Part shown: positions 11,795 to 44,191 of the stretch, piece by piece
Position numbering within the stretch: position 1 is the stretch's first letter
How the letters are laid out: every line of letters begins with the position of its first letter
Made by a program: the position numbers and the translations under genes
Notes under the pieces: model-generated
The model's input: only the letters and a program-made list of their open reading frames with translations
Told to the model about the DNA's origin: nothing
Databases searched by the model: none
Assembly (NCBI RefSeq): GCF_030373545.1
Contig: NZ_JAUDCO010000001.1
Span: forward strand, 186,001 to 250,000
Source: Collinsella tanakaei
GTDB lineage: Bacteria; Actinomycetota; Coriobacteriia; Coriobacteriales; Coriobacteriaceae
Direction of reading: 5' to 3'
Length of the DNA stretch: 64,000 bases

Positions 11795-11809
11795 CGTTTG
11801 CAGCGGCAT

Positions 11810-11913
11810 GGGAAAATAGGGACAGGCACCTTTTTTCCCAATGGCTACCGGCAAGATGGTAATGAGCACAAACATGTCGTCATCGGGAAAAGGGCGACTG
11901 TCCCTATTTTCCC
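11810..11913. repeat. Palindromic element, P4 head module carrying a P3-like unit
   Basis: A perfect 16-base inverted repeat, GGGAAAATAGGGACAG (11810-11825) and its complement (11898-11913), encloses 72 bases. Inside, 11849-11879 is a 31-base stretch, starting CGGCAAGATGGT and ending CACAAACATGTCG, that aligns with the P3 unit at 30681-30711. The same order (P4 head, CACC-TTT-CCC, then P3 unit) recurs at 43788-43858. The element lies between converging genes kup and the nitroreductase gene. Confidence 0.75.
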
Positions 11914-11921
11914 TCGTCGCT

Positions 11922-20553: not shown

Positions 20554-20692
20554 TACCCCCGTTTAGGGGACGGTTTTGCGGCGGGGCCCCGAGTAGACCG
20601 AAAACGCGCACCCCGTCTACCTGCGGGTTTCACGGGGCGAAGGCGCCGCCTACTCGAAGGGTCCCTCCAAAACCGTCCCCTAAACGGGGGTA
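20554..20692. repeat. Palindromic element, family P1 copy b
   Basis: A 24-base arm at 20554-20577, containing TTTAGGGGACGGTTTT, has an exact reverse complement at 20669-20692. An inner CGAGTAG/CTACTCG stem (20590-20596 with 20650-20656) is nested inside. Copy a at 1146-1270 has the same core with AGAAGAC in place of AGGGGAC and compensating changes opposite. It directly abuts the P2 element at 20695. The gap 20398-20943 consists largely of these two elements. Confidence 0.8.
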
Positions 20693-20694
20693 CC

Positions 20695-20840
20695 GCAAAC
20701 GGGTCGGTTGGGGACGTGTTCCGTTCAACCCATCTGCGGCAAGGCGCGCCGCCCCCTCTGCGAAGACGGGGCCAGGGAGCGCGGGCGAAGGAGGCCCGCA
20801 AATGGGTTGAACGGAACACGTCCCCAACCGACCCGTTTGC
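20695..20840. repeat. Palindromic element, family P2 copy a
   Basis: A perfect 39-base inverted repeat (20695-20733 and 20802-20840), containing GGTTGGGGACGTGTTCC, surrounds a 68-base GC-rich interior. The family recurs at 25821-25948 with three substitutions per arm, each matched in the opposite arm. The interior is not conserved between the two copies. Confidence 0.85.
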
Positions 20841-21698: not shown

Positions 21699-21760
21699 CG
21701 ACAAGAAGGGGTCGGGTGCAAACGTGTCGCGACGCGTTTGCACCCGGCCCCTTCTTGTCG
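21699..21760. repeat. Palindromic repeat, family P3 copy a (62 bases, no loop)
   Basis: Two 31-base arms meet with no spacer. The left arm runs CGACAAGAAGGGGTCGGG...GTGTCG and the right arm is its complement except at two positions, both of which would be G-U pairs in RNA. It lies in the 74 bases between the DeoR stop and the stop of the converging ABC gene, where it may double as a terminator. A third CTTTTGTCGG lies just beyond. Confidence 0.8.
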
Positions 21761-25737: not shown

Positions 25738-25820
25738 GAACGCGCAAGCGCTGTAAGCGACATGATACCCGACTCGAACCGGAAAATGGAAGCAACGACC
25801 ATTCTCCCACGCATCTGCAC

Positions 25821-25948
25821 ATGGGTTGGTTGGGGACGTGTTCCATCCAACCCATAATGGGTTGAGCGACAAGATGGTGCCAGGTACAAACCTGTCGGGT
25901 GACGCCGGTCAGAATGGGTTGGATGGAACACGTCCCCAACCAACCCAT
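25821..25948. repeat. Palindromic element P2 copy b with an inserted single P3 unit
   Basis: A perfect 35-base inverted repeat (25821-25855 and 25914-25948), containing GGTTGGGGACGTGTTCC, encloses 58 bases. Inside, 25867-25897 is a single 31-base P3 unit that differs by one base from 30681-30711. Compared with copy a at 20695, every arm substitution is compensated opposite. It lies 7 bases beyond the stop codon of the PatB-type gene. Confidence 0.85.
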
Positions 25949-25954
25949 ATGCTG

Positions 25955-30649: not shown

Positions 30650-30711
30650 CGACAAGTTTGTACCTGGCACCATCTTGTCGCGACAAGATGGTGCCAGGTA
30701 CAAACTTGTCG
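30650..30711. repeat. Palindromic repeat, family P3 copy c (perfect 62-base palindrome)
   Basis: Two 31-base arms, 30650-30680 and 30681-30711, are exact reverse complements with no loop. Each arm itself starts CGACAAG and ends CTTGTCG, and the core contains GGTGCCAGGTACAAA. It lies between converging genes (TRIC channel and typA). Single-arm relatives are at 25867-25897, 43828-43858 and, weaker, 11849-11879. Confidence 0.9.
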
Positions 30712-43787: not shown

Positions 43788-43858
43788 GGGAAAATAGGGG
43801 CAAGCACCATTTCCCCAGGCATGAGCGCGACAAGATGGAACCGGGCACAAATGTGTCG
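43788..43858. repeat. Truncated palindromic element: P4 head plus single P3 unit
   Basis: GGGAAAATAGGGGCAAGCACC (43788-43808, one base split by wobble from copy a) is followed by TTTCCCC, then a 31-base P3 unit (43828-43858: CGACAAGATGG...ATGTGTCG). The matching right arm present at 11898-11913 is missing, and tRNA-Gly tail repeats begin at once. It lies upstream of purB. The whole gap 43728-44116 is repeat DNA apart from the purB leader. Confidence 0.7.
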
Positions 43859-43864
43859 CCTCGC

Positions 43865-43963
43865 GACTCCAACGGGCTCGAGTCCCCGAAAGGGGCTCGG
43901 AAAAGGAAACGGCACCGTGGTCGGTGCCGTAAAAGCTCTGGAGCGGGCAACGGGACTCGAGCC
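43865..43963 (-). repeat. tRNA-Gly tail repeat, distal copy
   Basis: A unit of about 100 bases about 85-90 per cent identical by eye to 44043-44142. In tRNA orientation it contains the tRNA-Gly 3' end (CTCGAGTCCCGTTGCCCGCTCCA, broken here at CTCGAGTCCC), the terminator hairpin CGGCACCGACCACGGTGCCG and an inverted T-arm. Substitutions in the terminator stem loop (GTGG versus GCGG) leave the stem intact. Note it carries no 5' part of a tRNA. Confidence 0.75.
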
Positions 43964-44042
43964 GGCTGCGCCGGCTCCCCCGCTGCGGCGCTTCGCGCCT
44001 TGCGCGCTGCGCGGGGAACGCTCACGCGTTCCCACGCTCCGC

Positions 44043-44142
44043 GACCCCAACGGGTTCGAGTCCCTGGAAGAGGCTCCGAAAAAGAAACGGCACCGCGGTC
44101 GGTGCCGTAAAAGCTCTGGAGCGGGCAACGGGACTCGAACCC
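44043..44142 (-). repeat. tRNA-Gly tail repeat, proximal copy (overlaps the tRNA)
   Basis: This includes the true 3' end of tRNA-Gly, its terminator and, beyond it, an inverted T-arm with GGGACTCGAACCCG on the minus strand (44050-44063). Between the two copies lies an 80-base GC-rich segment (43964-44042) with several CGCG-rich hairpins. Confidence 0.75.
44081..44107 (-). terminator. Terminator of tRNA-Gly
   Basis: CGGCACC-GACCGC-GGTGCCG followed by TTTCTTTTT on the minus strand, ten bases after the encoded CCA. An equivalent hairpin recurs in the distal repeat (43910-43930). Confidence 0.85.
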
Positions 44143-44191
44143 GCGAGTGTCAGCTTGGGAAGCTGATGCCTTACCACTTGGCGATGCCCGC
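44117..44191 (-). tRNA. tRNA-Gly (anticodon CCC)
   Basis: A 75-base tRNA with acceptor GCGGGCA/TGCCCGC, anticodon loop TTCCCAA giving CCC, T-arm CGGGTTCGAGTCCCG, discriminator T and encoded CCA. Its 3' part is repeated downstream. Confidence 0.96.

Follow-up and report, generated by a model that had tools for sequence, protein, structure and literature searches.

A dispersed palindromic repeat family of Collinsella and its probable RAYT transposase

In the TIRYT/TIRtron system (Di Nocera et al. 2013, PMC3733652), an HUH/Y1 gene is flanked by long inverted repeats of a kind other than GTAG REPs; the repeats form dispersed families, some of which are self-complementary (PMC3733652). In REPtrons, the REP is a short, extragenic, imperfect palindrome that is dispersed through the genome and lies inverted around its own RAYT, which carries a Y---NP motif. 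REPINs (Bertels and Rainey 2011, PMC3116915) are dispersed palindromic repeats as well, some of them inverted doublets forming long hairpins. Each of these traits has a counterpart in P3, the repeat described here from Collinsella tanakaei. As for further features of the known systems, inverted doublets predominate among REPINs and singles are decayed (PMC3116915), E. coli strains without the RAYT retain their REPINs (PMC8049555), and Quentin et al. (2018, PMC6006769) found no REP-like sequences near RAYTs of their subclass 2.1, to which TIRYTs correspond. No description of such a family in Coriobacteriia was found in the literature searched, in keeping with the initial annotation, which had supposed the family undescribed in this lineage.

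The P3 unit and its copy number

P3 is a 31-base imperfect palindrome, CGACAAG-ATGGTGCCAGGTACAAA-CTTGTCG, with the consensus GGTGCCAG / GGGGCCAG, in which a 7-bp hairpin stem surrounds a GG[TG]GCC[AG]GGT core. Across 88 sampled units, variation is lowest in the 7-base stems; within the interior, the GG, GCC, GG and CAA positions hardly change and positions 12, 16 and 20 are variable, and beyond the 31 bases there is no conservation except for a weak G before the unit and a weak C after it. In the window, that is, the whole stretch of 64,000 nucleotides analysed, a check of the sequence found the unit everywhere the initial annotation had placed it (Table 1). The doublet at 30650-30711 is a perfect 62-base palindrome with a predicted DNA fold of -35.8 kcal/mol, and the doublet at 21699-21760 is 94% complementary, both differences being a T opposite a G. 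Single units had been described as lying within larger palindromes that belong to other families, which is the case at 25867 and 11849 but not at 43828, where the unit is preceded by a left-arm-like stretch alone. The orthologue of the decayed 11849 unit in a related genome (G038, below) is nearer to the consensus, with 6 mismatches. Next to the 43828 unit, a 110-nt direct repeat (89%) occupies window positions 43857-43966 and 44035-44144; the 44035 copy extends into tRNA-Gly(CCC) at 44117-44191 (-) and the other copy carries a partial tRNA, an arrangement that resembles an attachment-site duplication.

Table 1. Coordinates of P3 units and of the palindromes of other families in the window
Feature	Position	Strand	Details
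P3 unit, left half of inverted doublet	30650..30680	-	exact consensus
P3 unit, right half of doublet	30681..30711	+	exact consensus; no spacer
P3 unit, left half of inverted doublet	21699..21729	+	6 mismatches to consensus
P3 unit, right half of inverted doublet	21730..21760	-	6 mismatches; no spacer
Single P3 unit	25867..25897	+	1 mismatch; within loop of B-REP palindrome
Single P3 unit	43828..43858	+	6 mismatches; preceded by GGGAAAATAGGGGCAAGCACC-type stretch
Decayed single P3 unit	11849..11879	+	8 mismatches; within loop of GGGAAAATAGGGACAGGCACC palindrome
GGGACAGGCACC-family palindrome, left arm	11802..11838	+	encloses decayed P3
GGGACAGGCACC-family palindrome, right arm	11885..11921	-	encloses decayed P3
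B-REP, left arm of palindrome	25817..25855	+	palindrome hosts P3
B-REP, right arm of palindrome	25914..25952	-	palindrome hosts P3
B-REP, left arm of second palindrome	20695..20739	+	P3 absent
B-REP, right arm of second palindrome	20796..20840	-	

At up to 3 mismatches, the bare stem pattern matched 20 times in the window against 4.1 expected, a count reached by none of 100 shuffles. With a fuller pattern and the same tolerance, the 2.2-Mb genome to which the window belongs (G000) gave 122 forward and 119 reverse matches, against 1 and 1 for a reversed control; P3 is nearly palindromic, so that one place may match on both strands, which puts the number of places at 122 to 241. Sampled stretches totalling 199 kb yielded 88 units at up to 9 mismatches, and a Markov-resampled background yielded 0. 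P3 is a genome-wide repeat family with well over a hundred copies in G000.

A candidate cognate transposase

Of 45 Collinsella genomes, four are rich in P3 (at least 50 matches per strand at up to 2 mismatches), namely G000, G022 (C. tanakaei An791), G038 (an uncultured Collinsella metagenome bin) and G043. Four more have it sparsely and the rest essentially lack it, 36 having none; outside the genus only traces were seen, in two genomes belonging to a single genus. Two of the four P3-abundant genomes, G022 and G038, carry a single-copy chromosomal Y1/HUH tyrosine transposase associated with P3, here named RAYT-A (100% and 84% identity, respectively; the two proteins are about 84-85% identical), a co-occurrence with P = 0.006 over the 45 genomes in a test that ignores phylogeny. 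In both, two P3 units lie upstream of RAYT-A and one, inverted, lies downstream, at 102, 8 and 19 bp in G038 and 111, 17 and 0 bp in G022; this association comes from two genomes, one of which (G038) is a fragmented, 87%-complete bin with RAYT-A near a contig end. Twelve RAYT loci of P3-rich genomes were examined, and P3 is missing within 250 bp of the remaining 10. The initial annotation had pointed to a RAYT with the unit in its flanks as the gene to look for, and RAYT-A is such a gene, present in G022 and G038 and not in the window's genome. The absence of a transposase, previously remarked on for the window, extends to all of G000, where a search for RAYT-A found none.

The protein has the hallmarks of the family. 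Over 15 aligned RAYTs, H63 and H65 (HUH), Y122 and N126 (Y122xxxN126) are invariant and P127 is nearly so; the family profiles PF01797 (47 bits) and NF047646 REP_Tyr_transpos (E = 2e-19) match, the latter with a score of 69.7 that lies under the curated NCBIfam cut-off of 80. A sequence search against solved structures gave no significant match. A fold search with the RAYT-A structure model, which is of moderate confidence (pLDDT 77) and has a helical C-terminus, returned as its best hit 4ER8 (E = 1e-5), the structure of TnpA_REP in complex with a REP hairpin, followed by the IS200, IS608 and ISDra2 transposases. Within the family but outside Collinsella, the nearest relatives of RAYT-A reach at most 54% identity. 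P3 is very probably the REP-type repeat of RAYT-A. The link to a RAYT-type HUH transposase that had been suggested from the window alone is thereby borne out by the flanks of RAYT-A, but its REPIN component is not.

G000 has three Y1-transposase matches: RAYT-B (C3), a third RAYT, L003 (C12), and an IS200-like fragment (L001, a 129-residue open frame), which was set aside. With respect to the C-terminal HTH of TIRYTs (Bac_DnaA_C, HTH_23 or HTH_28), RAYT-B gave only weak, sub-threshold matches, to other HTH models. P3 in G000 could still be mobilised in trans by RAYT-B or L003, in which case it would not be an orphan. It is as near to consensus there as in the RAYT-A genome G022 (46 + 49 versus 41 + 47 close copies at up to 1 mismatch), and the P3 content of G000 and of its closest relative is not the same at 21699 and 25867. 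We nevertheless consider such mobilisation unlikely: neither RAYT-B nor L003, the full-length RAYTs of G000, has P3 within 250 bp, RAYT-B is flanked by a distinct repeat of its own (B-REP, GGGTTGGTTGGGGACGTGTTCC..CAACCC) that is dispersed in G000 with 52 + 53 matches, and each tnpA_REP is described as possessing a REP family of its own (PMC6006769).

Other repeats surround this system. A palindrome with TACCCCCGTTTAGGGGACGGTTTTG arms at window positions 20554-20692 adjoins a B-REP palindrome, and the same arm family also occurs in G038 (L068), where a B-REP palindrome holds it in its loop. In genome G016, a variant of B-REP, TTGGGGACGGGTTCGTTYCAACCC, gives about 87 strand matches, and several of these form inverted pairs with a separation of about 49 bp. 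Most of the other Collinsella RAYTs examined (loci L041-L051) have palindromic repeats of their own in inverted orientation on both sides, in several cases with a core of GGGGACAG type, and Collinsella holds many RAYT/repeat families.

Arrangement, gene context and turnover of P3

In samples centred on P3 matches, as distinct from a full census, 243 kb contained 103 units, of which 38 stand alone and the others form 25 doublets and 5 triplets. Of the neighbouring pairs, 21 are direct and 14 inverted, and their spacing is most often 31-33 bases, so that the units abut or are separated by 1-2 bases; the tail-to-tail orientation of the 30650 doublet is the rarest (2 of 35 pairs). Inverted doublets, part of the layout described in the initial annotation, are therefore a minority, and singles and head-to-tail pairs predominate. 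Mean mismatches are 2.76 for singles and 3.26 for clustered units, so that singles are no more diverged. GTAG precedes 4 of 80 units; the GT[AG]G hairpin foot of canonical REPs is absent. That P3 might be a canonical REPIN, with the inverted doublet as the mobile form and singles as its remnants, would suit the perfect and near-perfect inverted doublets at 30650 and 21699 and the inverted orientation of the units around RAYT-A; the counts of singles and direct pairs and the divergence of singles, no greater than that of clustered units, speak against it, as does a presence/absence site with a single unit (L101:14435), and we regard it as quite unlikely.

P3 is an extragenic, high-copy short palindrome, its extragenic placement being drawn from crude gene calls together with the window sites. 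The gene caller was crude: 22 of 69 P3 clusters fell within ORFs, many of them probably spurious, and site 30650 was miscalled. According to the same crude calls, P3 sites often lie just past gene ends, and the location between converging genes once attributed to most sites applies at 21699 and 30650 but shows no genome-wide enrichment. An Rfam search at P3 sites matched no family.

Orthologous junctions differ in their P3 content. The single unit at L101:14435 is present in G000 and G038 and missing in G043 and G022; this is the cleanest presence/absence site, and its immediate flanks differ as well. At the 30650 site, G000 has the doublet, G043 a pair of direct units at the orthologous place, and G038 a single diverged unit; G022 has no P3 there. 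At 25867, the same B-REP palindrome has a nearly empty loop in G043 and a loop with another palindrome in G038; at 21699, a different palindrome is present in G038 and G043, and one P3 unit in G022. Many P3 sites are common to G000 and G038. These differences, in which insertion boundaries and target are not exact, amount to P3 sites gained or lost over time between species. At the 30650 junction, G043 and G038 also have a palindrome of about 150 bp (GGTTTAYGGTTCGGTTTTA..., L061 and L062), where the window has the P3 doublet only.

Probable transposase replacement at gpmI-secG, and known systems

RAYT-A (in G022 and G038) and RAYT-B (in G000 and G043) share one address, between gpmI and secG. 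In G022, an isolate assembly, the order is gpmI - P3 - RAYT-A - P3 - secG. G000 and G038 share 94% identity over the longest match of the window. At this locus, their identity is 97% on the gpmI side and 93% beginning with secG, but in the RAYT it falls to about 67%, and there only a part aligns; G000 and G043, by comparison, are about 90% identical straight through RAYT-B. The RAYT-A and RAYT-B proteins are 51% identical, and the RAYT-B proteins of G000 and G043 are 91% identical. In G043, a truncated P3, cut off by B-REP, lies upstream of RAYT-B, and in G038 a B-REP remnant lies upstream of RAYT-A; these remnants point to successive states at gpmI-secG. The order may have been RAYT-A first, RAYT-B next and, in G038, a return to RAYT-A, the G038 side of this sequence of events coming from a metagenome bin. 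In the window's genome, RAYT-A has very probably been replaced by RAYT-B at this address, which leaves the P3 copies there as an orphan population. The difference between G038 and G000 could in principle be an assembly artefact of the G038 bin, which is fragmented, carries RAYT-A close to where a 13.3-kb contig ends and has flanking P3 units that invite misjoining; this is very unlikely, however, given that the separate isolate assembly of G022 has the same gene order and that G043 independently has RAYT-B there with the truncated P3.

A further genome, G039, has another RAYT at gpmI-secG, 48% identical to RAYT-A and with another repeat. A leader, ATCCTTACCGGAACCCAACACATA...CTACCTGCGGAA..GGGTA (L054:2070-2126, with counterparts in L045, L037 and L050), lies upstream of three gpmI-secG RAYTs with differing repeats and is a possible cis-regulatory element. 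Tentatively, and as a possibility we would not rate as even, gpmI-secG may be a dedicated transposase locus at which whole cassettes of RAYT and repeat, differing in specificity, are exchanged between Collinsella species, each swap orphaning repeats that persist in more than 100 copies, nested in the palindromes of the new family.

If RAYT-A acts as TnpA_REP and the IS200/IS605 transposases do, it would recognise P3 as a folded hairpin of single-stranded DNA, its tyrosine would cleave at the hairpin foot (cleavage and strand choice being presumed), and units would be pasted into single-stranded DNA; the mobile form may be a single unit or a tandem array, not only the inverted doublet. Orphan P3 copies in G000 might then be decaying relics or be kept for a side role, for example as 3'-end hairpins. 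That P3 consists solely of host-function hairpins, terminators or stabilisers of mRNA 3' ends with no mobile element, is highly improbable despite the strong doublet fold and the frequent position after gene ends, for the 31-base sequence itself and not the fold alone is conserved, the 30650 doublet lacks a T-run and was not called as a terminator, terminator-like matches in the region are at chance level (5 versus 5.7), and sites come and go between species, most of the Collinsella genomes having none.

The mobile-repeat reading places RAYT/TIRYT-driven repeat families in Coriobacteriia, for which no earlier description was found. Sister genomes that share a repeat population, with and without the transposase, offer a natural experiment on repeat persistence, and also on whether RAYT genes behave as host genes fixed at one address and exchangeable by recombination. 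Among described systems, TIRYT/TIR is the nearest, and the RAYTs here probably belong to subclass 2.1 of Quentin et al., as judged from their C-terminal extension. Like TIRYTs, the 15 aligned RAYTs have the HUH motif and the Y---NP tyrosine, and several other Collinsella RAYT loci have a flanking GGGGACAG-type motif reminiscent of the GGGGWSAS of most TIRYTs, from which the P3 core GG[TG]GCC[AG]G differs; a further difference from TIRYT is that in Collinsella one address holds different RAYT/repeat cassettes across species. The predicted fold of RAYT-A, nearest to that of E. coli TnpA_REP (4ER8), recalls REPtrons, but P3 lacks the GT[AG]G foot, is a 31-nt unit with 7-bp stems and is without its cognate transposase in the window's genome. 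Unlike in REPINs, singles and direct pairs predominate, close pairs are mostly flush or 1-2 nt apart and singles are not more decayed; and unlike in the E. coli strains that keep REPINs without a RAYT, another RAYT with its repeat occupies the gpmI-secG locus. In our judgement, P3 joins the RAYT/REP and TIRYT/TIR group as a new family, the cassette swap being its unusual trait.
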